A stretch of DNA of 64,000 nucleotides, taken from NCBI GenBank assembly GCA_903822185.1, contig CAIJOA010000011.1, positions 744,001-808,000 of the forward strand. Reading direction: 5' to 3'. The notes below the pieces were generated by a model. It made no database searches and was not told where the DNA came from. It worked only from the letters and a program-made list of their open reading frames with translations. Origin of the DNA: an uncultured Rhodospirillales bacterium. Lineage in GTDB: Bacteria; Pseudomonadota; Alphaproteobacteria; ATCC43930; CGMCC-115725. The translations under genes were made by a program, and so were the position numbers. Below, piece by piece: positions 1,735-30,177 of the stretch (its first letter is position 1; each line of letters opens with the position of its first letter).

Positions 1735-2754
1735 TTACTGAGCGAGAAATTCGTTTGTCATGAGTTCGGCCACGGCCGGCTTGCGGCTCATGTTCTGGTC
1801 GTACTGCATCAGCAGATCGACCATGCCCGACCATTCTTCGGGGCTCGACCAGCCGACCGGCTTGCCGGCGGATTCCTTCGACACCATCTTTTCCGGCACC
1901 ATCTCATAGGCATATTCGGCCAGGATTTCCGGCGCCGGGGTTTCGTCATACTGCTTGTGGACGATCACTGAGGCTTCGGGCACGGCCTTCTTCGGATCGG
2001 CGATCATGTAGGCCCAGGCCTTTTGCGTCGCCTTGACGAAATGCCGGATCATGTCCGGGTCTTTCTGGATCGTCTCCGTACGCACCATCAGGCCGCTGCC
2101 GATCAACGGCAGATAATCCGAGAACACGAATTGATGGACGATCTCGCCCTTCTGCTTGAACAGCCATTCGCCGGTCGAGCCGAGAATGAAATTGCCGGAG
2201 GCATCGACCTGCTTGGCGCCGAAGATGCCGTAATAGCTGCGGAAGTCCCAGTTGATCAGCTGTACCTTGCTGGCATCGACGCCGGTCGCCTTGGCGAAGC
2301 TGGGCCAGAGGATAAACGCCATCGAACCGGGCACGAAACCGAGCTTGCGGCCTTCGAGATCTTTCGGCGTCTTGATACCCGAGGATTCGAAATAAGCCAT
2401 CGACAACGCATCGCGTTGACCGAAGACCGCGACCATGCGCAGCGGCAATTCGCTTTTGCCCGCCGCCTCGGCCAGCGACGCCGCCGCAACGTTGCCGATA
2501 TCCGCCTGGCCGCCAGTCAGAATCTGCATCGCCTGGGTCGAACCGCTGCTACTTTTGATCGTGACGTCGAGGCCTTCATCGGCGTACCAGCCGCGTTCCT
2601 TCGCGATCCAGAAACCGAAATGCTGTGGTTGGATACCGGTCCATTCCAGCACCAACGTCACCGGCTTGAGTTTGTCGGCGGCAAAACTGCCGCCGGTCAT
2701 CGCCAGCAACGCCGCCCCCGCGACGAAACCGGCACGCAACACGCGATTGACCAT
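1735..2754 (-). CDS. ABC transporter substrate-binding protein, NMT1/THI5-like
   Basis: This 339-residue protein has an N-terminal signal peptide (about 25 residues ending SFAA). The mature part begins VTLVLEWTGIQPQHFGFWIA and has the family features of a periplasmic binding protein for small planar molecules: GWYADEGLDVTI, then SSSGSTQAMQILTGGQADIG. Relatives bind pyrimidine precursors, nitrate, taurine or aromatic compounds. Its ATG shares one base with the TAA of the upstream cupin gene (TAATG), implying translational coupling. The likely partners are the ATPase and permease transcribed divergently from 3916. The ligand cannot be assigned. Confidence 0.85.
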   Translation of the reverse strand: MVNRVLRAGFVAGAALLAMTGGSFAADKLKPVTLVLEWTGIQPQHFGFWIAKERGWYADEGLDVTIKSSSGSTQAMQILTGGQADIGNVAAASLAEAAGKSELPLRMVAVFGQRDALSMAYFESSGIKTPKDLEGRKLGFVPGSMAFILWPSFAKATGVDASKVQLINWDFRSYYGIFGAKQVDASGNFILGSTGEWLFKQKGEIVHQFVFSDYLPLIGSGLMVRTETIQKDPDMIRHFVKATQKAWAYMIADPKKAVPEASVIVHKQYDETPAPEILAEYAYEMVPEKMVSKESAGKPVGWSSPEEWSGMVDLLMQYDQNMSRKPAVAELMTNEFLAQ

Positions 2755-3746
2755 TACTTCACCCCTTCAGCCAGCTTGATGGTTCCCTTGGTTTCGAACA
2801 GCAGTGTCGCCGGCGCCGTCTCGCGCGTGCCGAAGGTATGTTCGATGCCGTAGGGCATGCAGAACATCGTTCCGGCGGGCGCATCGATATAACCAAGCTC
2901 GGTCTTTTGATCGGCATCGCCGGCATGGACGAAATGGATTTCGTTGCGGACGTTGTTGCGATGATAGAAAGGTGGGCCTTCACCGGCGCCCTGCTTGCTG
3001 ATGTCGAGTTCCATCATGCTGTTGGCGAACAAGCGTAAGGGACGATGCGTACCCGGCACGTCGTTCGGAATGGCATCCATGTCGATCGCATAAACGAGAT
3101 CATGCGAGCCGACGATGTCTTTGACGCCCAACGGATCGTAACGACGCTTCACATTGGCGGTCCAATCGAGGCCGTTGATCCGCTCTTCCCACGAAATCTG
3201 TTCTGGCTTTTCGACATCGGTCAGTGGGAAGGTCGGGCGGACGACCTGCAGATCGACCGTATGCCAATGCTCGCTGGGACGAAGCTCGATCTGGCTTTCG
3301 AGAATGAAGTCGAAGAAATCTTTGCTTTCCGGCACGACGCGATACCGCACACCACGGCCGATATGAATGAAGCGGCCCGGCTTGGCTTCAAGTTCACCCA
3401 ACTCGGTCAGGAAACGCGCGCGGCCGCGATGAATGAAATGCAGTTCCTCATGCGCGGTCGAGCGCCAGGTATAGGTCATCGGCGCGGTGCGCTTGCTGAG
3501 CTTGAAACGCATCTGTTCCAAATCGGCGAGAACCGTTGGTTCGGCCGAGGCATCGGTCTCGTCCGCCGTCGTCAGTTTGTGAAGGTCTAATTGAAAATAG
3601 GGAATGTTCCCGGTGAAGGATTCTGCGCCGTAGGATTTCACGTCCTTCACATCCATGGCAATGCGATCGCCGCCATCGATCTTTTCCAGAAATTCGTCGG
3701 CCCGCACTTCGCGACCGCGCGTCAAGATCGTTCGGGAAACAGCCAT
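2754..3746 (-). CDS. Double-cupin protein, homogentisate 1,2-dioxygenase-like
   Basis: This 330-residue protein has two cupin halves. The N-terminal half holds HEELHFIHRGRARFLTELG and then PGRFIHIGRGVRYRV, closely following the pattern of the homogentisate dioxygenase family. The C-terminal half holds FYHRNNVRNEIHFVHAG and MPYGIEHTFG, which supply His and Glu residues suitable for an Fe(II) site. It is shorter than true homogentisate dioxygenase (about 430 residues), so a related ring-cleaving enzyme is more likely. The ATG at 3746 is preferred over an upstream in-frame start because GGAG lies 7 bases before it. It is the first gene of a leftward set with a binding protein and a hydrolase. 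Confidence 0.65.
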   Translation of the reverse strand: MAVSRTILTRGREVRADEFLEKIDGGDRIAMDVKDVKSYGAESFTGNIPYFQLDLHKLTTADETDASAEPTVLADLEQMRFKLSKRTAPMTYTWRSTAHEELHFIHRGRARFLTELGELEAKPGRFIHIGRGVRYRVVPESKDFFDFILESQIELRPSEHWHTVDLQVVRPTFPLTDVEKPEQISWEERINGLDWTANVKRRYDPLGVKDIVGSHDLVYAIDMDAIPNDVPGTHRPLRLFANSMMELDISKQGAGEGPPFYHRNNVRNEIHFVHAGDADQKTELGYIDAPAGTMFCMPYGIEHTFGTRETAPATLLFETKGTIKLAEGVK

Positions 3747-3915
3747 ATTGATCTCCACTGATGACGTCGGCAGGGCGTGGCCGTCGAACACCACCACCCA
3801 ACAAAACCGATCTTAGCGGCAACGGTCGCATATTTGTGCTTGCCGTGGAAGGGGCGTTCATACACGTTAGAAAAGTAATGCGCGACAGTGCGCTGAAAGA
3901 TCGAGCATCGAACCG
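3747..3915. promoter_or_regulatory. Divergent promoter region of the uptake/catabolic cassette
   Basis: This 169-base gap separates the leftward cupin-binding protein-hydrolase genes from the rightward ATPase-permease genes, so both promoters must lie here or just upstream. I see no convincing -35/-10 pair and no strong palindrome, and no regulator gene is adjacent. Confidence 0.5.
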
Positions 3916-4755
3916 GTGACAATCGAAATTTCAACTGAACAGGTTACGCACGCCCACAAAAGCAAACCGTTCATCGAAGCCGAAGGGCTGCGTATCGCCT
4001 TCGGTGCGACCCCTGCACTCGACGGCATCGACCTCACTATCGCTGAAGGGGAATTTTTTTCCATTCTTGGCCCCAGCGGCTGCGGCAAAAGCACATTTTT
4101 GCTGCTGACGGCCGGATTGCTACACCCAACCGGGGGCAAAATTTCCGTCGAGGGAAAACCGGTGCGCGGCGCTTACACCAACGCCGGGATCACCTTTCAG
4201 AATCACAATCTTTTAGAGTGGCGCACGGTTCTCGATAACGTGCTGCTGCCGCTCGAAATAAGGCACATCAAGAACGACCGCTTCGTCACGCGCGCGCATG
4301 AATTGCTGGCAATGACCGGGCTGGATGAGTTCGAAAATCATTATCCGCATCAACTGTCAGGCGGCATGCGGCAACGCGTGGCCATTTGCCGCGCCCTCGT
4401 TTGCGACTTGCCGCTGCTGTTGATGGACGAGCCGTTCGGCGCACTCGACGCGCTGACGCGCGAGGAACATCAACTATTGTTGCAGGATATTTGGCTGCAT
4501 GAACGCAAGACGGTGCTGTTCATCACCCACGATATTCGCGAGGCGATCCTGTTGTCCGACCGTGTCGCGATCATGTCGCCGCGGCCGGGACGTATTCTCG
4601 ATCTGCTGACCATCGATCTGCCACGACCGCGCAGTCAGGATGTCAGCGAGTCACCCGAATTCATCGAGTATTCGCGCCGCATCCGCAGTCAGCTTTTCGC
4701 CAAGCCGCTCTCTTCCAAGATGGCGGCTTCCAAGATGACCGGAAAAACCAAATGA
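3916..4755 (+). CDS. ABC transporter ATP-binding protein, NitT/TauT type
   Basis: This 279-residue ATPase has Walker A GPSGCGKST (about residues 53-61), the signature LSGGMRQRVAICRAL, Walker B LLLMDEPFGALDA and the switch His in FITHDIREA. The sequence type belongs to the SsuB/TauB/NrtD group that energises uptake of sulfonates, nitrate, pyrimidine precursors and aromatic acids. The start is a GTG at 3916 with only a weak ribosome site. The final ATGA overlaps the permease start. The likely binding protein is the one at 1735-2754 on the divergent arm. Confidence 0.9.
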   Translation: MTIEISTEQVTHAHKSKPFIEAEGLRIAFGATPALDGIDLTIAEGEFFSILGPSGCGKSTFLLLTAGLLHPTGGKISVEGKPVRGAYTNAGITFQNHNLLEWRTVLDNVLLPLEIRHIKNDRFVTRAHELLAMTGLDEFENHYPHQLSGGMRQRVAICRALVCDLPLLLMDEPFGALDALTREEHQLLLQDIWLHERKTVLFITHDIREAILLSDRVAIMSPRPGRILDLLTIDLPRPRSQDVSESPEFIEYSRRIRSQLFAKPLSSKMAASKMTGKTK

Positions 4756-5537
4756 ACTGGTTCAACCGCACTTGGCCTTCGATCCTTTTCGCCGTGTTGC
4801 TTGTCGTCGTTTGGGAAGCTGCCGCCGATTATTTCCACATCCCTGACATCCTGCTGCCGGCGCCGTCTAAGGTCATTGCCGGCATGATCGGCGCAACGCC
4901 GCTGTATCTCAAACATGTCTGGCCGACACTTAACGAGATCCTGCTCGGGTATGCTATCGCCTTGGCGCTCGGGACACTCTGTGGCCTGATCATCGCCTTC
5001 TCCCGCTTCATGGGGAATGCGATCTATCCCGCGCTGGTCGCAACCCAGATCATGCCGAAGGTCGCCTTCGCACCCCTTCTCGTCGTCTGGTTCGGCTTTG
5101 GACTGATGCCGAAGCTGATCTTGATCGCGCTGATCGCGTTCTTCCCGATCGTTATCAACACGGTCGTCGCGCTCAACATGACGTCGCAGGAAACGATCTA
5201 TCTTTTCCGCTCGATGGGCGCCGGCCCGGTGCAGACCTTCTTCAAGCTGCGCCTGCCCGCCGCGCTGCCGGTGTTTTTCGGTGGTCTGAAAATCGCCGCG
5301 ACCTTCGCCGTGATCGGCGTCGTCGTCGCCGAGTTCTATAGCTCGGACAAAGGGCTCGGCTATCTGTTGCTGCTGGAAGTCTCGAACGGCGACACGACGC
5401 GCGCGTTTGGCTCGATCATCTATCTGACGCTGCTCGGCCTGCTGGTCTTCGGCGTCGTCGTGCTGATCGAACGGCTGATGGTGCCGGCGCATATGCTCAA
5501 ACGTTTCGACGAGACGAGCGGACGCACGGCGGGGTAA
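4752..5537 (+). CDS. ABC transporter permease, NitT/TauT type
   Basis: This 261-residue inner-membrane protein has about six hydrophobic segments (first at roughly residues 8-28). The cytoplasmic loop that contacts the ATPase follows SMGAGPVQTFFKLRLPAALP (about 156-175), the classical EAA-type region of SsuC/TauC proteins. Its ATG overlaps the ATPase stop (ATGA), so the two are coupled. It would work as a homodimer with the ATPase and the periplasmic binding protein encoded at 1735. A palindromic repeat follows the stop. Confidence 0.9.
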   Translation: MNWFNRTWPSILFAVLLVVVWEAAADYFHIPDILLPAPSKVIAGMIGATPLYLKHVWPTLNEILLGYAIALALGTLCGLIIAFSRFMGNAIYPALVATQIMPKVAFAPLLVVWFGFGLMPKLILIALIAFFPIVINTVVALNMTSQETIYLFRSMGAGPVQTFFKLRLPAALPVFFGGLKIAATFAVIGVVVAEFYSSDKGLGYLLLLEVSNGDTTRAFGSIIYLTLLGLLVFGVVVLIERLMVPAHMLKRFDETSGRTAG

Positions 5538-5572: not shown

Positions 5573-5652
5573 CGTCACCCCCGCGAAAGCGGGGGTCCAT
5601 CTCGATAACGGATTCGCTGCCCGGATGGATTCCCGCATACGCGGGAATGACG
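5573..5652. repeat. REP-like palindromic repeat, family A, copy 1
   Basis: An 80-base element begins CGTCACCCCCGCGAAAGCGG and ends ATTCCCGCATACGCGGGAAT followed by GACG. Two short hairpins (CCCCCGC-gaaa-GCGGGGG and TTCCCGC-atac-GCGGGAA) are joined by about 30 less conserved bases. The termini CGTCA and TGACG are complementary. A second copy is at 28364-28441. Elements of this sequence are widespread between genes in alphaproteobacteria. It lies between convergent genes (permease and metH), where it may also limit read-through. Confidence 0.8.
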
Positions 5653-22234: not shown

Positions 22235-22403
22235 GCAACCGATGTCCGGGAAAACGGCGTGAGTGGACAATCTATTGCCTGGCCGTGGCTTTACAACCCG
22301 CGCCGGGGCATTCCCGCCCCTCGCCCTAACCCGCTTCACCTGGCCTCCGAAGCCCGCTAAATTCGGGGCGGGATACTCGAAACCCCAAGAGGAGGAACGT
22401 TTC

Positions 22404-22913
22404 ATGGCGATCACGATGTATTCCGGCTCCGTGCCGGTTTTCTTACAGCTTCTGCCCGCGATCTCGGGCTGCCTCGATAAGGCGCAGGCTTTCGCCGAAA
22501 GCCGCAAATTCGATCCGAATGTGATCCTGCAGCACCGTCTGGCGCCCGATCAGTTCACCTTCACCCGTCAGGTTCAGCAGGCTTGCGCCCATGCCTGTGC
22601 GCCCGGTCGTGTCGCCGGCGTGCCGGTGCCGGCCTTCACCGATACCGGCGCGACCATCGCCGAACTGAAACAGCGCATCGCCACCACCATCGATTATCTG
22701 AAGGGCCTCGACGCCAAGCAGATCGACGGCAAGGAAGACAGCGAAGTCAGCGTCCAGCTCGGCCCGAACACGCGCGTCTTCAAGGCGCAGGTTCTGGTGT
22801 TCCATCACGCCCTGCCGAACTTCTATTTCCACACCGTCACCGCCTACGACATTCTGCGCCAGATGGGCGTCGAAGTCGGCAAGCGCGATTACATGGGCCA
22901 ACTGCCCGCCTAA
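22404..22913 (+). CDS. DUF1993 domain-containing protein
   Basis: This 169-residue soluble protein has the DUF1993 pattern: MYSGSVPVFLQLLPAISGCL near the start, RLAPDQFTFTRQVQQACAHA, then AELKQRIATTIDYLKGL and a C-terminal FHHALPNFYFHTVTAYDILR. The fold resembles DinB-like four-helix proteins with His residues that could bind metal. The function is unknown. GGAGG lies 8 bases before the ATG at 22404. An intrinsic terminator follows 21 bases after the stop. Confidence 0.9.
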   Translation: MAITMYSGSVPVFLQLLPAISGCLDKAQAFAESRKFDPNVILQHRLAPDQFTFTRQVQQACAHACAPGRVAGVPVPAFTDTGATIAELKQRIATTIDYLKGLDAKQIDGKEDSEVSVQLGPNTRVFKAQVLVFHHALPNFYFHTVTAYDILRQMGVEVGKRDYMGQLPA

Positions 22914-22934: not shown

Positions 22935-22966
22935 AAAGGGCCGGTCATTACACGACCGGCCCTTTT
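22935..22966 (+). terminator. Intrinsic terminator after the DUF1993 gene
   Basis: AAAGGGCCGGTC pairs perfectly with GACCGGCCCTTT around ATTACAC and is followed by TTTTG. It is a 12-base-pair stem with a T-run, and the flanking A-run makes it usable on both strands. Confidence 0.88.
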
Positions 22967-23026: not shown

Positions 23027-25396
23027 ATGCACGACAAGAAGTTCGGGATCGGTCAGCCCGTGCGTCGCAAGGAAGATCTTCGGCTTCTGACCGGCAAAGG
23101 CCGCTACACCACTGACGTCGAATTGGCGGAGCAACTGCGCGCCGTCGTGCTGCGCTCGCCCCACGCCCATGCCAATATCAAATCGATCGATGCCGCGGCC
23201 GCGCTGGCGATGCCAGGCGTTGTCGCCGTTCTGACCGGCGCGGATGTTACCGCCGACAATCTGAAACCGACGCCGACCGACAACGCAACCTTCGGCCCGC
23301 GCCAGGCGCAGATGGCCTTTCCCGATGTCGTCCTGTGGAATCGCGATGGCTCGGACATGCATCCCTCGCCGCTGCTGCCGCTGGCCGTCGGCAAGGTCCG
23401 CTATGTCGGCGAAGGCCTCGCCCTGATCGTGGCCGAGACGCTGGCGATCGCCAAGGATGCCGCGGACCTCGTCGAGGTCGATTACGACACCCTGCCAGCC
23501 GCCACGCATCCCGAAGACGCGGCAAAGCCGGATGCGCCGCAGCTATGGGCCGAACCGACCAATGTCTGCCTCGATGCCGAGATCGGCGATGCGCCCGCAA
23601 CTGAGGCGGTCTTCGCCAAAGCCGCCCACACGGTTCGCTTCAAGACCTGGATTCAACGCGTCACCGGCGTGACGATGGAACCGCGCTCGGCGACGGCTTT
23701 CTATGACACGAGCAACGACCATATCATCCTGCATGTTGCGGCCGGGTCGGGCTCGGTGCGCATGCGTGCCGGGGTTATCGCGATGATCGGCATCGCTCCC
23801 GAAAGGCTGCGCGTCATCTGCAATGACGTCGGCGGCAATTTCGGCACGCGCAACGCGCTCTATCCCGAGACAGCCCTCATCACCTGGGCGTCGATGCGGT
23901 TGAAGCGCTCGATTAAATGGGTATCGGAACGGACCGAATCTTTCGCCGCCGATTTCCAGGGCCGCGATCTCGCCGCCGATATCGAGCTGGCGATAGATGT
24001 GAAAGGCAAGTTTCTTGCCATGCGCGGCTCGTATCTCGGCAATGTCGGCGCTTACAATCTGTCGATCGTGCCGCTGCGCAAGGCGGTCGGCATCCTGACC
24101 AGCGTCTATGACGTCCCGACCGCCTATGTCACTGCCCGCAGCGTGCGCAGCAACACGCCGACGACCGTGCCTTACCGGAGCGCGGGCCGACCGGAAGCGA
24201 TGTTCATCATGGAACGGCTGATCGATCTCGCCTGCAAGAAACATGGCTTCGACCGCGTCGAACTGCGTCGCCAGAATCTGATCGGGGTCGATGCTTTCCC
24301 CTACAAGAACGCGACCGGCATCACCTACGACAACGGCACCTATGAAGCGGCGATGAATTCGGCGCTGAAGCTTGGCGACTGGGATGGCTTTGCAGCACGG
24401 CGCGAAGAGGCGCGCAAGCGCGGCAAGCTCGCCGGGATCGGCCTCGCCAATTACATCGAATGCACCACCGGCGTGCCGCGCGAACGCGCCGAGTTGATCG
24501 TTCAGCCCGAAGGCCGCGTCGATGTTATCATCGGCACCCAGTCACACGGTCAGGGCCACGAGACCAGTTTTGCCCAATGCGTCAGCGAATGGCTGGGCGT
24601 GCCGTTCGACAAGATCACGCTGATCACCGGCGACACCGATGTCGTGCCGGTCGGCGGCGGCAGCAATTCCGGCCGCTCGATGCGTTATGCAAGCATCCTG
24701 ATGGGCTACGCCTCCGACGAAATCATTGCCAAGGGCAAGCGCATCGCCGCCCATGTCTTTGAAGCCAACGCCGCCGATATCACCTTCGATGACGGTGTCT
24801 TCAAGGTCGAAGGCACCGACAGGCAGATGGATATCTTCGCCGTCGCCGCAGCCGCGCTGGGCCGCAATGACCTGCCCGAAGAACTGCGCGGTCGCCTCGC
24901 CGCCGAACGCGACGAAGTCTTCAAAGTCGCCGGCTTTCCCTTCGGCGCGCATGTCGCCGAGGTCGAGGTCGATCCCGACACCGGCGTCGTGGCGCTGACG
25001 CGCTACGCCGCCGTCGATGACGTGGGTCGCGCGGTCAATCCGATGATCCTTCACGGCCAAACCCATGGTGCGGCCGCCCAGGGCATCGGCCAAGCGCTGT
25101 GGGAGCAGTGCGTTTATGACAGCAAGACGGGGCAACTTCTGTCCGGGTCGCTGATGGATTACGCATTGCCGCGCGCCGACGTGCTGCCGACCTTCGCAAC
25201 GGAATTGAGCGAAGTGCTCTCGCCGACCAACCGCCTGGGCGTGCGCGCCGGCGGCGAAGGCGGCACGACGCCGGCGCTGGCCGTGGTCGTCAACGCCATC
25301 GTCGATGCGCTGTCGGATTACGGCATCGACCATATCGAGATGCCCGCGACATCGGAGCGCGTCTGGCGCGCGATGCAGGATGCGCGGGCACATTGA
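23027..25396 (+). CDS. Molybdenum hydroxylase large subunit (CoxL/xanthine dehydrogenase family)
   Basis: This 789-residue protein covers the molybdopterin-binding subunit of the aldehyde oxidase/xanthine dehydrogenase family. It starts at KFGIGQPVRRKEDLRLLTGKGRY (residues 3-25). The active-site loop VPYRSAGRPEA (about 380-390) replaces the AYRCSFR loop of true CO dehydrogenase. The catalytic Glu is in AGGEGGTTPA near residue 744. This subunit hydroxylates an aldehyde or N-heteroaromatic substrate, but the enzyme normally needs FAD and [2Fe-2S] subunits. Neither is encoded beside it. GGGGGGA precedes the ATG. It heads a rightward run with three binding-protein genes. Confidence 0.88.
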   Translation: MHDKKFGIGQPVRRKEDLRLLTGKGRYTTDVELAEQLRAVVLRSPHAHANIKSIDAAAALAMPGVVAVLTGADVTADNLKPTPTDNATFGPRQAQMAFPDVVLWNRDGSDMHPSPLLPLAVGKVRYVGEGLALIVAETLAIAKDAADLVEVDYDTLPAATHPEDAAKPDAPQLWAEPTNVCLDAEIGDAPATEAVFAKAAHTVRFKTWIQRVTGVTMEPRSATAFYDTSNDHIILHVAAGSGSVRMRAGVIAMIGIAPERLRVICNDVGGNFGTRNALYPETALITWASMRLKRSIKWVSERTESFAADFQGRDLAADIELAIDVKGKFLAMRGSYLGNVGAYNLSIVPLRKAVGILTSVYDVPTAYVTARSVRSNTPTTVPYRSAGRPEAMFIMERLIDLACKKHGFDRVELRRQNLIGVDAFPYKNATGITYDNGTYEAAMNSALKLGDWDGFAARREEARKRGKLAGIGLANYIECTTGVPRERAELIVQPEGRVDVIIGTQSHGQGHETSFAQCVSEWLGVPFDKITLITGDTDVVPVGGGSNSGRSMRYASILMGYASDEIIAKGKRIAAHVFEANAADITFDDGVFKVEGTDRQMDIFAVAAAALGRNDLPEELRGRLAAERDEVFKVAGFPFGAHVAEVEVDPDTGVVALTRYAAVDDVGRAVNPMILHGQTHGAAAQGIGQALWEQCVYDSKTGQLLSGSLMDYALPRADVLPTFATELSEVLSPTNRLGVRAGGEGGTTPALAVVVNAIVDALSDYGIDHIEMPATSERVWRAMQDARAH

Positions 25397-25416
25397 ATTT
25401 ATCGGGGGAATAGCAA

Positions 25417-26403
25417 ATGCGTTTGGGGACAAAGGCCGCACTGGCGGCAGCGGCGATATCACTGACGGCGATCGGCCCGGCCCATGCCGCCGATAAGATG
25501 AAAATCACCGTCTCCGGCTGGTTTTCGTCTTTCTCGAATTACTTCCTTGCCATCGATAAAGGCTATTACGCGCAGGAAGGTATCGAGACCGAGATCATCC
25601 AGGCCGGCGGCGGGACTGCAACACCGGCGCTGCTATCCGGCGATGTGCAATATTCAAGCTCCGCCAGTGTCGCCATCACCGCGATCCTCAAGGGCGGCGA
25701 ATTAAAAATCGTCTTCGCCGACAATGATCGCGTGCCCTATCAGCTCTGGTCGGCACAGCCCGCGGTCAAGACGCTGGAAGACCTCAAAGGCAAGCAGGTT
25801 GCGATCGAAAATCGCGGCGACACGCACGAGATCGCCGTCCGCGAAACCTTCCGCAACGGCAAAGTCGATTCGGCCACCGTGATCTTCACCCCGTTGCAAT
25901 CGCGCGCGACCATTCTGGCCGGCCTGAGTTCGGGTTCGCTGGCCGCCGCCAGCGTCACCAACGACGAGGTGCAAAAGCTGCAGGCCTTGCCCAACGCCCA
26001 TATGGTCGCGGACATGACCAAGATCGTCCACACCATCACCGGCGGCGGCGTTTTCAGCGACGACTTCCTGGCCAAGCATCATGACCTCGCCGAGCGTTTC
26101 ATGCGGGCGACGGTCAAAGGCCGCCGTCATGCCGTCGCCTTTCCGGAAGATATGGTCGCTTCGGTGCTGAAGCGCGATCAAGGGCAAAACCACGACGCGA
26201 TCCTGCAAAGCTGGAACACGCAGATGCCGTTGCGTACCGCCGATGGAACGATCTCCGAAGACGCGCAGAAAGACGAGATCGTCGTCCGGTCCGAGTTGCT
26301 GAACGTGCCGCCCGAAAAGCGGCGTACCCCGGCGCAGGCTTTCGACTTCTCGTTGATCCGCCAGGCGAACGCCGAACTCGACAAGCAAGGATGGAAGCCA
26401 TGA
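25417..26403 (+). CDS. ABC transporter substrate-binding protein, tandem paralog 1
   Basis: This 328-residue protein has a signal peptide ending GPAHA and a mature part beginning ADKMKITVSGWFSSFSNYFL. The ligand-pocket segments GYYAQEGIETEIIQAGGGTA, ATPALLSGDVQYSSSASVAI and AILKGGELKIVFADND are almost identical in the next gene. It is an NMT1/TauA-like periplasmic protein. It lies 20 bases after the molybdenum hydroxylase gene, with GGGGGA before the ATG. The probable translocator is the ATPase/permease pair on the opposite strand at 28451-30083. Confidence 0.87.
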   Translation: MRLGTKAALAAAAISLTAIGPAHAADKMKITVSGWFSSFSNYFLAIDKGYYAQEGIETEIIQAGGGTATPALLSGDVQYSSSASVAITAILKGGELKIVFADNDRVPYQLWSAQPAVKTLEDLKGKQVAIENRGDTHEIAVRETFRNGKVDSATVIFTPLQSRATILAGLSSGSLAAASVTNDEVQKLQALPNAHMVADMTKIVHTITGGGVFSDDFLAKHHDLAERFMRATVKGRRHAVAFPEDMVASVLKRDQGQNHDAILQSWNTQMPLRTADGTISEDAQKDEIVVRSELLNVPPEKRRTPAQAFDFSLIRQANAELDKQGWKP

Positions 26404-27380
26404 ACCGCATCGCCGCCATTGTCACCGCTATCACGCTTACCGCCACCGCCGTTCCCGCTCATGCTGCCGATAAGATGAAGATCACCGTCTCGGGTTGGTT
26501 TTCGACTTTCTCGGGCTACTTCCTCGCCATCGACAAAGGCTATTACGCACAGGAAGGCATCGAGACCGAGATCATTCAAGCGGGCGGCGGCACGGCAACA
26601 CCCGCCCTGTTGTCGGGCGACGTGCAATATTCAAGCTCGGCCAGCGTCGCCATCACTGCCATTCTGAAAGGCGGCGAATTGAAGATCGTCTTCGCCGACA
26701 ATGATCGCGCACCCTACCAGCTCTGGACGGCGCAGCCGGCGATCAAGACCTTGGCCGATCTGAAAGGCAAACAGATCGCCATCGAGAACCGTGGCGATAC
26801 GCACGAACTGACCGTGCTTGAGACGTTCCGCGCGGAACATGTCGATCCCTCGACCATCGTCTTCACCCCGCTGCAATCGCGCGCGACGATCATCGCGGCT
26901 TTAAGCTCAGGCTCGCTTGCCGCGGCCAGCATCATCACCGACGAAGCCGAGCGGGTGAAGAACCTGCCCAATGCGCGCATGATCGCCGACATGACCAAGA
27001 TCGTGCATACGATCAATGGTGGCGGCGTTTTCAGCGATGCCTTCATCAGCAAGAACCGCGACCTCGCCAAGCGCTTCATGCGCGCCTCGATGAAAGGCCG
27101 GCGCCACGCCGTCGCCCTTCCCGAAGACATGGTCGTGTCGGTGCTGAAGCGTGACTCCGGCCAAAACCACGATGCGATTATGCAAGGCTGGGTCGCGCAG
27201 GAGCCGCTGCGCACCGCCGACGGAACGATATCGCTCGATGCCCAAAAAGAAGAGATCACCGTCCGGTCCGAGTTATTGAACGTTCCGTCGGAAAAACGCC
27301 GCACGCCGGATCAGACTTTCGATTTTTCCATAATCCGCGAAGCCAATGCCGATCTCGACAAGCAGGGATGGAAACCATGA
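26400..27380 (+). CDS. ABC transporter substrate-binding protein, tandem paralog 2
   Basis: This 326-residue protein starts at the ATG overlapping the previous stop (ATGA). Its signal peptide ends VPAHA. It shares most residues with paralog 1, including the block from ADKMKITVSGW to the FADND segment. Main differences are in the hinge and second lobe (SIITDEAERVKNLPNARMIA compared with SVTNDEVQKLQALPNAHMVA). This points to a recent duplication with early divergence, possibly altering ligand range. There is no separate ribosome site, so expression depends on paralog 1. Confidence 0.87.
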   Translation: MNRIAAIVTAITLTATAVPAHAADKMKITVSGWFSTFSGYFLAIDKGYYAQEGIETEIIQAGGGTATPALLSGDVQYSSSASVAITAILKGGELKIVFADNDRAPYQLWTAQPAIKTLADLKGKQIAIENRGDTHELTVLETFRAEHVDPSTIVFTPLQSRATIIAALSSGSLAAASIITDEAERVKNLPNARMIADMTKIVHTINGGGVFSDAFISKNRDLAKRFMRASMKGRRHAVALPEDMVVSVLKRDSGQNHDAIMQGWVAQEPLRTADGTISLDAQKEEITVRSELLNVPSEKRRTPDQTFDFSIIREANADLDKQGWKP

Positions 27381-28351
27381 TCCGCCGTTTCATCGCCGCC
27401 GCCGCGCTGTGCGCCATTGCGACCGGACCGGCGCACGCCACCGATCCGATGAAGATCACCGTAACCGGCCTTGTTTCGGGCTTCGCCGATTATTTCATCG
27501 CGACGGATAAGGGCTATTTCGCGGAAGAAGGTATCGTTCCCGAGATCGTCCAAGCCGGCGGAAGCACCGCGACCCCGGCGCTGCTTTCCGGCGACGTACA
27601 ATATTCGACCTCGGCCAGCATCGCCATCACCGCGATCCTGCGCGGCGGCGAGTTGAAGATCGTTTATGTGAACAACGATCACGTCCCCTATCAGCTTTGG
27701 ACGACGCAGCCGGCGATCCAGACCCTGGCCGATCTGAAGGGCAAGCAGGTCGGCGTCGAGACGCGTGGCGACACGCACGAACTGGCGATGCGCGCGGCAT
27801 TCCTCAATGTCGGCGTCGATCCGGCGACGGTGATCTATACGCCGCTCTCGAACCGCTCGGCCATCGTCGCTTCAGTCATGACCGGTTCGCTTGCCGCGGC
27901 GAGCATGGTCATCGACGAGTTCGAGCGCATCAAAGCGGCGCCCAACGCGCGGCTGCTGTTCGATTTGCAAAAGATCGAGTTGATCGCCGGCGGCGGCGTC
28001 TTTTCCGACAAACTACTGAAGGAAAACCGACCGCTGGCCGAACGTTTCATGCGCGCCGTCGTCAAAGGCCGCCGCGCCGGGCGGGACAATGTCGAGGAGA
28101 TCGTCAATTCGGTGCGCAAGCGCAACCCGGCGCAATCCGCCGAAGACATTCGTACCGCCGTCAATCTGCAACGGCCGCTCAACACCATCGACGGCACGAT
28201 ATCGCTCGAGACGGAAAAGTTGGAGATTGCCAACCGCTCCGACCTCCTCAATATCGCACCCGACAAACGCCGCAAGCCGGAACAGGCGTTCGATTTCACG
28301 TTGCTGAAAGAAGCGAACGCCGACCTCGACCGCAAAGGCTGGAAGCCGTAA
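27377..28351 (+). CDS. ABC transporter substrate-binding protein, tandem paralog 3
   Basis: This 324-residue protein is again coupled by ATGA to the preceding gene, with a signal peptide ending GPAHA. It is clearly related to paralogs 1 and 2 but more divergent: TDPMKITVTGLVSGFADYFI replaces the WFS opening, and the second lobe has FDLQKIELIAGGGVFSDKLL. Both the pocket strand ATPALLSGDVQYSTSASIAI and the final helix ANADLDRKGWKP are kept. A palindromic repeat follows the stop, then the ATPase/permease genes converge from the other side. Confidence 0.87.
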   Translation: MIRRFIAAAALCAIATGPAHATDPMKITVTGLVSGFADYFIATDKGYFAEEGIVPEIVQAGGSTATPALLSGDVQYSTSASIAITAILRGGELKIVYVNNDHVPYQLWTTQPAIQTLADLKGKQVGVETRGDTHELAMRAAFLNVGVDPATVIYTPLSNRSAIVASVMTGSLAAASMVIDEFERIKAAPNARLLFDLQKIELIAGGGVFSDKLLKENRPLAERFMRAVVKGRRAGRDNVEEIVNSVRKRNPAQSAEDIRTAVNLQRPLNTIDGTISLETEKLEIANRSDLLNIAPDKRRKPEQAFDFTLLKEANADLDRKGWKP

Positions 28352-28363
28352 CGAAAACCTTGC

Positions 28364-28441
28364 CGTCACCCCCGCGAAAGCGGGGGTCCATGACGCAACG
28401 AATTCGCTGCACGATGGATTCCCGCTTTCGCGGGAATGACG
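28364..28441. repeat. REP-like palindromic repeat, family A, copy 2
   Basis: This 78-base copy of the element at 5573-5652 keeps the same outer ends (CGTCACCCCCGCGAAAGCGG and TTCCCGCTTTCGCGGGAATG) and has a less conserved centre. In both copies the element lies between convergent genes, here the third binding protein and the ATPase, 10 bases before the ATPase stop. Confidence 0.8.
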
Positions 28442-28450
28442 AAGTATTTT

Positions 28451-29251
28451 CTAATCCGCGTGCTGCATGCCGCGTTGCAGTTCGTCCTTCATCAGCCGCC
28501 AGATACGCTGGCGATAGGCGACGAAGGGCGCGCTGGCTTTGATCTTTTCGTCATCGACCCAGCGCGGTTTCGGCAGATCGACCGGCACGATATCGAGAAT
28601 GCGGCCCGGCCGCGCGCCGAAGACAAAAATCCGATCCGACAGGAAGATCGCTTCGTCGATACTGTGGGTGACGAAGACGATGGTGCGATTGTCTGCGCTG
28701 AGCAGCTTCAGCAATTCGATCTGCATCAATTCGCGGATCATCGGATCGAGCGCGCCGAACGGCTCGTCCATCAGCAGATATTTCGGCGCGGTGCTGAGGG
28801 CGCGGGCGATACCGACGCGCTGCTTCATGCCGCCCGATAGCTGATGCGGGAAATAGCCGCCGAAACTCTTCAATCCAAGCTTCGACAGATTTTCCTCGGC
28901 GATGCGTTCGCGATCGGCGCGTTTGGTCTTTTGAATCTCCAACTCGAGCCCAAACTCTGCGTTCTTCTCCGCCGAGCGCCAGGGCAGCAGGTTGAATTCT
29001 TGAAACACCATCGAACGGCTGGGCGCGGGTCCGCGCACATGCGTCCCGTCGATCGTCACATTGCCCATGCTGGGCAGGATGATGCCATCGATGATGCGCA
29101 GCATCGTCGTTTTGCCGCAGCCGCTGGGGCCGAGGAACGAGACGAATTCGCCGTCGGCGATAGTGAAGGACACGTTTTCGAGCACATTGGCCGGCGCAGC
29201 GGCGCCGCGCTTGTTGCCGAAACGATGGGTGACGTTGGAAATCTCGATCAT
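28451..29251 (-). CDS. ABC transporter ATP-binding protein, NitT/TauT type
   Basis: This 266-residue ATPase has Walker A GPSGCGKTT (about residues 38-46), the Q-loop segment VFQEFNLLPWRSA, signature LSGGMKQRVGIARAL, Walker B LLMDEPFGALDP and FVTHSIDEA. It belongs to the SsuB/TauB group. The permease gene is 13 bases upstream on the same strand, forming an operon. The three tandem binding proteins converge on it, so a shared importer is likely. A repeat element lies just past its stop. Confidence 0.9.
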   Translation of the reverse strand: MIEISNVTHRFGNKRGAAAPANVLENVSFTIADGEFVSFLGPSGCGKTTMLRIIDGIILPSMGNVTIDGTHVRGPAPSRSMVFQEFNLLPWRSAEKNAEFGLELEIQKTKRADRERIAEENLSKLGLKSFGGYFPHQLSGGMKQRVGIARALSTAPKYLLMDEPFGALDPMIRELMQIELLKLLSADNRTIVFVTHSIDEAIFLSDRIFVFGARPGRILDIVPVDLPKPRWVDDEKIKASAPFVAYRQRIWRLMKDELQRGMQHAD

Positions 29252-29264
29252 GATCTGTCGCCCC

Positions 29265-30083
29265 TCAATCCGAATTCTTGGCTTGCCATGGGGCGATCCA
29301 GCCTTCGACCCAGCGCATCGCCGAATTGAGGATCACGCCCGCACCGGCGAGAATAAACACGCCGGCAAACAGAAGCGCAGTGTCGTAATTGGCGCCCGCC
29401 TGGAAAATCAGATAGCCGAGGCCCGAGGTCGAGGCGTAAAACTCGGCCACCACGACCATGATCAGCACGCGGCCGATGGCGAGGCGGAAGCCGGCCAAAA
29501 TGAACGGCAACGCCGCCGGAGCGATGATCTTGAACAGGATCTCGCGTTCGTTGGCGCAAAAGGCGCGCCCCGTCTCGATCAGCTTCTTGTCGATGCTGGA
29601 GACGCCGACTTCGGTATTGATGATGATGACGAAGATCGCGCCCAGCACGACGAGGACCACCTTCGACCAAACGCCGAGGCCCAGCCACAGGATGATCAGC
29701 GGCAGGAAGGCGACGGTTGGCGAGGCATAGGACGCCATCACGAAGGGTTCCGTGCTATCGCGGATGAAGCGGCTGCGCCCCATGGCGATGCCGACCGGCA
29801 CGCCGAGGACGATGGAGATGGCGAAGCCCAGCCCGGCGATCTCGGCGGACGAAGCGATATGGGGCCAGATGCTGCCGTCGGCGAAAACCTCGTAGAGTTT
29901 TTCGAACACCAACGAGGGGCTGCTAAGAAACAGCGGGTTCACCTTGCCCGCGCGGACGACCCATTCCCACAGGCCCAGGGCGATGACCACCGCCGCCAGC
30001 CGCGTGATCGCCGTCTGATGCCGCGCCCATATCTCCGACAGGATCGTTGTCGGCGGCTCGAGCACTTGGACCTGTTGCGACAT
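29265..30083 (-). CDS. ABC transporter permease, NitT/TauT type
   Basis: This 272-residue permease has about six membrane segments. After an N-terminal cytoplasmic stretch the first helix is AVVIALGLWEWVVRA (about 33-47). The ATPase-contact loop is around KLIETGRAFCANEREILFKI with IAPAALPFILAGF after it. GAGGGGG precedes the ATG. The ATPase gene follows after 13 bases. The promoter would lie between 30084 and 30177, shared with the divergent metallo-hydrolase gene. Confidence 0.9.
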   Translation of the reverse strand: MSQQVQVLEPPTTILSEIWARHQTAITRLAAVVIALGLWEWVVRAGKVNPLFLSSPSLVFEKLYEVFADGSIWPHIASSAEIAGLGFAISIVLGVPVGIAMGRSRFIRDSTEPFVMASYASPTVAFLPLIILWLGLGVWSKVVLVVLGAIFVIIINTEVGVSSIDKKLIETGRAFCANEREILFKIIAPAALPFILAGFRLAIGRVLIMVVVAEFYASTSGLGYLIFQAGANYDTALLFAGVFILAGAGVILNSAMRWVEGWIAPWQAKNSD

Positions 30084-30177
30084 TCTTCCCCCTCCCCGAC
30101 CTGGCCGAAGTTCGGCCAGCCTTTAGCTTTACTTGCAACCATAGAGCGCCTCGCTCAGGATCGCTATGGAGGGACCG

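Follow-up and report, generated by a model that had tools for sequence, protein, structure and literature searches.

Importers of the TauABC, SsuABC and NrtABC type, which we take to form the NitT/TauT family, combine an NMT1-type substrate-binding protein (SBP), a permease with a BPD_transp_1 domain and an ATPase with an ABC_tran domain, and are encoded in one operon with one SBP. The locus analyzed here lies in a stretch of 64,000 nucleotides, hereafter the window, from an uncultured Rhodospirillales bacterium (contig CAIJOA010000011.1, positions 744,001 to 808,000; coordinates without a contig prefix are those of the window). It holds the same three components, and the fold of its SBPs is close to that of TauA and SsuA, but the arrangement is different: a CoxL-like molybdenum hydroxylase gene and three paralogous SBPs (SBP1, SBP2 and SBP3) on the plus strand face an ATPase/permease pair on the minus strand, and this placement of SBPs and ATPase/permease on opposite strands is found in a sister species, as well.

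Several binding proteins around one transporter have been described before. Five OppAs are reported around one ATP-binding cassette (ABC) transporter in the Opp system of Borrelia burgdorferi, i.e., several paralogous binding proteins with pocket variation, as in our locus (PMC7822543); however, the protein families are different, and the SBPs of the window are translationally coupled and stand beside oxidizing enzymes. An excess of SBPs on the scale of a genome is known for tripartite tricarboxylate transporters (TTT): Rhodoplanes sp. Z2-YC6860 is reported to have 434 TTT SBPs, with a longest array of nine and the orphans proposed to be shared or sensory, and an over-representation of TTT-type SBPs is reported for Bordetella, too (PMC5994714). 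The likeness lies in orphan SBPs in large excess over membrane partners, in tandem arrays, in an alphaproteobacterium; the difference is that here the expanded family is the ABC-type NMT1 family, with only 4 matches to TctC (PF03401), a longest array of 17, and two arrays collinear with the sister species. For comparison, the richest strain in a survey of 49 strains is reported to have 189 SBPs of all kinds (PMC9602780). The nearest precedent that we found is the TTT expansion of Rhodoplanes, and no report of an expansion of NMT1-type ABC SBPs was found among the titles and abstracts of the open-licence papers searched. The statement of the sequence-only reading that no system of this form is described was too strong in view of the Borrelia OppAs and the TTT excess; several SBPs on one translocator are a known kind of system, and the genome-wide excess of NMT1-type SBPs is the larger surprise.

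We consider it somewhat probable that the block at 23.0-35.2 kb is a conserved uptake-and-oxidation island, in which SBP1-3 feed one translocator, and CoxL and a Rieske oxygenase oxidize the imported compounds. This explanation starts from the gene order, the coupling, the conservation in one sister species, purifying selection and a match between broad clades of SBPs and permeases, all of which are observed. Under it, SBP1-3 and CoxL would probably be carried on one transcript; the SBPs would capture two related types of ligand in the periplasm (type A by SBP1 and its duplicate SBP2, type B by SBP3) and dock on the single, convergently encoded translocator, made of the ATPase and a TauC-type permease; and the two convergent halves would be co-regulated. 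Within the cell, imported aromatic or heteroaromatic acids would be oxidized by the phthalate-dioxygenase-like Rieske oxygenase and by the CoxL-type hydroxylase, whose Fe-S and flavin (FAD) subunits would come from elsewhere. The island would be one example of a scheme common to the genus, with many more NMT1-type SBPs than translocators. The features of the block are as follows (identities are to the sister record, L023).

22401..22913, plus strand: DUF1993 protein (PF09351, E 1.9e-50), conserved upstream neighbour, 70% identity
23027..25396, plus strand: CoxL-like molybdenum hydroxylase large subunit, 789 aa (PF01315, PF02738, PF20256)
25417..26403, plus strand: SBP1, NMT1-type, putative pocket type A (PF09084, E 2.6e-19)
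26400..27380, plus strand: SBP2, NMT1-type, duplicate of SBP1, putative pocket type A (PF09084, E 8.1e-22)
27377..28351, plus strand: SBP3, NMT1-type, putative pocket type B (PF09084, E 4.5e-20)
28364..28441, no strand assigned: hairpin between the convergent halves, from the fold of 28350-28452
28451..29251, minus strand: ABC ATPase, TauB/SsuB/NrtD-like (PF00005), 79% identity
29265..30083, minus strand: ABC permease, TauC/SsuC-like (PF00528), 81% identity
30166..31137, plus strand: metallo-beta-lactamase-fold (MBL) hydrolase, divergent from the permease (PF00753, E 1.3e-24), 68% identity
31500..32801, plus strand: Rieske oxygenase alpha subunit, phthalate-dioxygenase/LigXa-like (PF19301, PF00355), 75% identity
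32934..34139, plus strand: LivK-type binding protein, Peripla_BP_6 (PF13458, E 4e-54), 73% identity
34207..35166, plus strand: fourth NMT1-type SBP of the conserved block, of a different clade in the SBP tree (PF09084, E 1.1e-23), 63% identity

The Pfam domains are MoCoBD_1, MoCoBD_2 and Ald_Xan_dh_C in CoxL, NMT1 in SBP1-3, ABC_tran in the ATPase and BPD_transp_1 in the permease. The open reading frames (ORFs) of SBP2 and SBP3 were listed from 26391 and 27368, and the next in-frame ATG (26400 and 27377, respectively) was taken as the start; given these starts, the SBP1/SBP2 and SBP2/SBP3 junctions are exact ATGA overlaps. CoxL and SBP1 have the same direction and are separated by 20 nt. Identity to SBP1 is 79% for SBP2, 59% for SBP3 and 20-22% for the three other NMT1 proteins of the window. 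The ORFs, domains and overlaps thus bear out the layout first read from the sequence, i.e., a CoxL-like gene and three ATGA-coupled paralogous SBPs converging on one ATPase/permease pair.

The sister species is represented by record L023 (CAIKMD010000007.1, the uncultured Rhodospirillales metagenome-assembled genome (MAG) Umea3_bin-2224), which was taken as genome G001 of the same genus. Its gene order is DUF1993, CoxL, SBPa and SBPb, facing ATPase and permease, followed by MBL, Rieske oxygenase, LivK-type SBP and NMT1 SBP, and protein identity across the block is 63-81% (67% for CoxL); the search for the same order in other Rhodospirillales, proposed as a check, was therefore answered by one sister species. 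Where the window has three SBPs, the sister has two, with SBPa 71% identical to SBP1 and SBPb 69% identical to SBP3, so that a conserved set of several paralogous SBPs beside one permease/ATPase pair is present in two genomes. Because MBL, Rieske oxygenase, LivK-type SBP and the further NMT1 SBP are also kept in the sister, the conserved unit extends to ~35166; the originally proposed extent of 23027-30083 had the layout right and ended too early. Among relatives beyond the sister, identity to the SBPs in the best segment is 22-39% (24 of 25 loci). A permease search at E 1e-65 gave matches in one of 289 genomes of the class, the organism's own; the sister, which is expected to match, was evidently outside that sample.

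The ratio of nonsynonymous to synonymous substitution rates (dN/dS) is 0.11-0.40 across all ten gene pairs compared, including CoxL (0.31), permease (0.20) and ATPase (0.22) against the sister. These values, together with the retention of the block in the sister, indicate that the gene order of the window is not due to chance. For SBP1/SBP2, dN/dS is 0.114 at a dS of 1.14, i.e., in the range where dS is saturated, and duplication dates are accordingly not claimed; judged from these rates, SBP2 is an old duplicate that is being kept, not decaying. A very recent tandem duplication or an assembly artefact as the source of the triplet was rejected because of the same values and the doublet in an independent MAG.

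The AlphaFold2 model of SBP1 has a mean pLDDT (predicted local distance difference test score) of 89.3, and its best structure matches in PDB include the thiamin SBP 4nmy, Thi5, 3ix1, TauA and SsuA. These fold neighbours (binders of thiamin, of the HMP precursor, of taurine and of sulfonates, and Thi5) would allow small heterocycles or anionic ligands, without deciding between them. Eight putative pocket loops (58 positions) were chosen from the secondary structure of this model; the structure alignment included 14 of 21 distant homologues with an ORF. Across species, loop identity is 52/58 for SBP1/SBPa (163/246 elsewhere in the protein) and 45/58 for SBP3/SBPb (163/245 elsewhere), and within a genome it is 40/58 for SBP1/SBP3, 34/58 for SBPa/SBPb and 51/58 for SBP1/SBP2. 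For example, loop 1 is SG.FS.FS.Y in SBP1, SBP2 and SBPa, and TGLVSGFADY, identically, in SBP3 and SBPb. The loops fall into two cross-species types; therefore, we infer two ligand types (A for SBP1/SBP2, B for SBP3) and one retained duplicate, not three ligands. Of the multi-ligand capture system that had been proposed, the part with several SBPs on one translocator is plausible, given the order in two species and the SBP beside the nearest permease paralogue (below), and the ligands would, judged from the loops, be of two types.

The closest permease paralogue in the genome (59% identity) is at C4:47021-47752, in a locus that encodes, consecutively on one strand, an SBP with 36% identity to SBP1, this permease and an ATPase with 58% identity. 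The SBP tree contains 82 SBPs, 66 from the organism's own genome and 16 from the sister (4 of 86 SBP matches were dropped by length); it should be noted that gene calling for loci and tree was based on GC frame, so that some genes were misplaced, e.g., over the permease at 4791-5486, and some SBPs behind false frames are absent from the tree. A clade with support of 1.0, with 13 of the 66 own SBPs, includes the triplet, the C4 SBP, the SBPs of loci L067 and L068, and the array at C11:664-671k, whose nearest related permeases on the contig map to 608 kb and 749 kb; none of the window's three other NMT1 SBPs falls in it. Because the paralogous C4 transporter has an SBP of the same broad clade beside it, the assignment of the triplet to the convergent pair is supported: members of the SBP clade and of the permease clade are found together at two loci, which is support, not proof. 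The permease probably acts as a homodimer, because the pair has only one permease gene. Among the matches listed (for the ATPase, 25 of 183), the SBPs, the ATPase and the permease are below the NCBIfam cut-offs for taurine, sulfonate and nitrate subunits. A rough hydrophobicity criterion for signal peptides, which searched a wider range in SBPs than in other genes, was positive for 82/82 SBPs; among all genes of these loci that encode 280-400 aa, with the SBPs counted, it was positive for 84/139. In a Pfam scan of ten proteins from the loci, eight had NMT1; L012:15627-16724 is a MutY-like glycosylase and L021:15508-16524 a DctP-type SBP. A second NMT1 system occupies 1735-5486 of the window: an SBP and a cupin protein share one strand, and an ATPase (3916-4755) and a permease (4791-5486) are encoded divergently on the opposite strand.

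The CoxL-like protein contains MoCoBD_1, MoCoBD_2 and hammerhead domains and GEGG at residue 743, as expected of a large subunit; we take this GEGG to hold the catalytic glutamate, and the roles given to the other motifs are likewise our assumption. The nearest PDB sequences are CoxL 8uem (476.5 bits), carbon monoxide dehydrogenase (CODH) 1ffu (383), 6-hydroxypseudooxynicotine dehydrogenase 7dqx (365), CODH 1n5w and 1zxi (358 and 357) and quinoline 2-oxidoreductase 1t3q (354.5). Like these hydroxylases of the xanthine-oxidase family (8uem, 7dqx, 1t3q), it has large-subunit domains over most of its length; it differs in having no adjoining small-subunit gene, and the CODH motif is absent. The active-site motif of CODH is AYXCSFR, and YRSAGR is found at residue 383 instead (PYRSAGR at 382-388); with this motif absent and no CoxS nearby, the assignment as a CODH was rejected. 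No signal peptide was seen by eye. In the organism's own genome there are 19 large-subunit genes (22 matches, with three pairs merged) and five CoxS in all, none of them on the contig of this CoxL; the general Pfam scans had no CoxM among the neighbours, and no genome-wide CoxM search was made. A CoxS lies within 1.4 kb of four of the 19 large-subunit genes; the contigs of the other 15, some of which are short, carry no CoxS. For the CoxL of the block, electron transfer must be supplied from another place, or this enzyme works in a different way. Among the CoxL-type genes without CoxS are C14:127811, C14:131295, C42:124352 and C5:2517, some of them near SBPs and Rieske oxygenases; no report on orphan CoxL genes was found among the titles and abstracts of the open-licence papers searched. 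The link between CoxL and SBPs is unsupported as a general rule: 8 of the 15 CoxS-less CoxL genes have an SBP within 5 kb, and ~31% of the genome is within 5 kb of an SBP (contig ends untrimmed; no formal test). The Rieske protein has PDB sequence matches to 7fjl, 9ina and 7fhr. The most economical guess for the substrate is an aromatic or heteroaromatic acid, and the N-heterocycles suggested earlier are possible. The placement of the molybdenum enzyme in the same system holds in that this hydroxylase and the Rieske oxygenase share a conserved block; the unit also includes MBL and two more SBPs.

The excess of NMT1-type SBPs is seen in the whole genome, a MAG of 4.27 Mb with 95% completeness. 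The union of listed PF09084 and PF13379 matches gives at least 209 SBP places, which is a lower bound because not all candidates were scored or listed (150 were scored in each search, of 252 and 227, respectively, and 150 of 151 PF13379 matches were listed). The related permease genes number 49, merged to 38 systems, i.e., there are far more SBPs than membrane partners. Tandem arrays are part of this excess: the ten runs of three or more SBPs have 17, 10, 5, 5, 5, 4, 4, 4, 3 and 3 members, the window triplet being one of the last two. The longest, C48:85895-102989, consists of 17 NMT1-type SBPs head to tail, without a permease inside and with an ATPase and two permeases ~11 kb further. The sister has an array of 11 genes that is collinear with it (8 tree pairs in the same order, support 0.87-1.0); the C11 array has five collinear orthologue pairs with the sister. 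Such collinearity would be unexpected after a random expansion or one with homogenization. The run of ten at C39:70370-80192 belongs to a different clade, and the nearest of the related permeases listed for its contig is ~36 kb distant.

The numbers compared between genomes are those of first-look candidates and not of scored genes. For PF09084 there are 250 in this genome and 281 in the sister, and the next highest listed numbers are 50 among 289 genomes of the class and 63 among 397 of the phylum. With SBP1 as query, the numbers are 214 here, 226 in the sister and 114 in G014, compared to 37 or fewer in the remaining 58 of 61 genomes. G014, which belongs to another genus of the same family, has 121 PF09084 candidates, of which 110 matched, in 6.5 Mb; G005, of the same genus as G014, has only 18 SBP1 candidates vs. 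114; repeated origins or a loss of the expansion may account for this. Permease candidates number 57 here, the top of the 21 genomes listed out of 289, with 54 in the next; because these values are close, the excess lies in the SBPs. A general expansion of SBP families was rejected, since the two other families tried were not expanded: TctC has 4 and 6 matches, and Peripla_BP_6 has 19 and 22, in this genome and the sister, respectively (32, 12 and 68 Peripla_BP_6 matches in the relatives G002, G010 and G014).

The intergenic regions have their own features. A stem-loop at 22938-22962 lies between the DUF1993 gene and CoxL; stem-loops after the DUF1993 gene were seen by eye in both species, and the one in the window is not listed by the terminator scan, which at 22.2-36.0 kb found 16 vs. 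13.1 expected (sd 3.8), within chance. The ~100 nt between the convergent halves (28350-28452) fold at -57.4 kcal/mol (z -8.83); this hairpin is not in the sister, where the stop codons of SBPb and the ATPase are 8 bp apart. Pairs of CCCGC...GCGGG palindromes ~50 bp apart occur at 5580-5645 and 28371-28434, and similar pairs are found in L014, L015 (both at the C48 array) and L067, in the first two between SBP genes. The pattern was matched in 12 of 69 loci, several being the window site again or one site twice; its count in the window (4 matches with up to 2 mismatches) is at chance level, with 18 of 100 shuffles reaching 4. The divergent region between permease and MBL (30084-30165) contains a perfect palindrome at 30101-30119, which was rejected as an operator because the sister's region has no perfect palindrome of that kind.

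Several results weigh against an island with one dedicated translocator. Only two genomes are known to carry the block; by SBP1 match at E 1e-60, they are 2 of the 61 searched, with the own genome counted. Predicted secondary structure, with neither ligand nor coordinates, was the basis for assigning the pocket loops. Being on opposite strands, the ATPase/permease and the SBPs need separate promoters; a strong hairpin separates the two halves in the window, and the promoter scan at 22.2-36.0 kb found 0 vs. 3.8 expected. CoxS is near CoxL in neither genome, the sister's six CoxS being either located on different contigs or separated from the block by 350 kb or more, and the selection estimates involve saturated dS. 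Within the triplet clade, the C4 SBP is closer to the C11 SBPs than to the triplet (nodes 0.969 and 0.986), for some C11 SBPs any related permease is more than 50 kb away, and a neighbouring permease is not the rule, because only 58 of the 209 listed SBPs lie within 5 kb of one. The last two points are what would be expected if the genus's NMT1-type SBPs formed a shared pool docking on several translocators, or on sensors, with the window's pair as only one partner; at least 209 SBPs for 49 permease genes and the distance of the C11 array from its contig's permeases point the same way. Against this stand the conserved convergent order and the C4 locus, where the nearest permease adjoins an SBP from the triplet's broad clade; we regard such a pool as unlikely, although it is the most probable of the alternatives.

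Somewhat less probable again is a hydroxylase that is unrelated to the imported ligand, or is a non-working redox enzyme without Fe-S and FAD subunits, so that only the transporter part forms a unit. The scarcity of CoxS (five in all, with 15 of 19 large-subunit genes lacking one on their contig) and the spread of SBPs over many places in the genome, CoxS-less CoxL genes included, are consistent with it, whereas the 20-nt spacing and common direction of CoxL and SBP1, their conserved adjacency, and the presence of the catalytic motifs (in the roles assumed above) argue against it. If SBP1-3 bound one and the same ligand, the copies would only raise binding capacity; this agrees with the 51/58 shared loop residues and the low dN/dS of SBP1/SBP2, but SBP3 and its sister counterpart have a different, conserved loop 1, and SBP1/SBP3 share 40/58, which makes a pure dosage effect the least probable of these explanations and rather improbable. 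The uptake-and-oxidation island, with two ligand types entering through one translocator, is therefore retained as the favoured explanation.

As a tentative conjecture, which we would call possible but not yet probable, the NMT1-type SBP of this genus may serve as an interchangeable capture module: more than 200 periplasmic receptors, kept in stable collinear arrays in the manner of a receptor repertoire, would have a few dozen TauBC-type translocators in common, and perhaps sensors as well. The triplet would be a small, linked hub of this kind, a two-type set showing how a new specificity can be gained with the existing translocator. Should SBP1-3 indeed use a common translocator, the block would offer a compact test case for how specificity grows when the receptor is copied and the pump is not. 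On the scale of the genome, a pattern known from TTT transporters is extended to ABC importers, and because the two species share orthologous arrays, the role of orphan SBPs, as transport parts, sensors or both, can be addressed directly.

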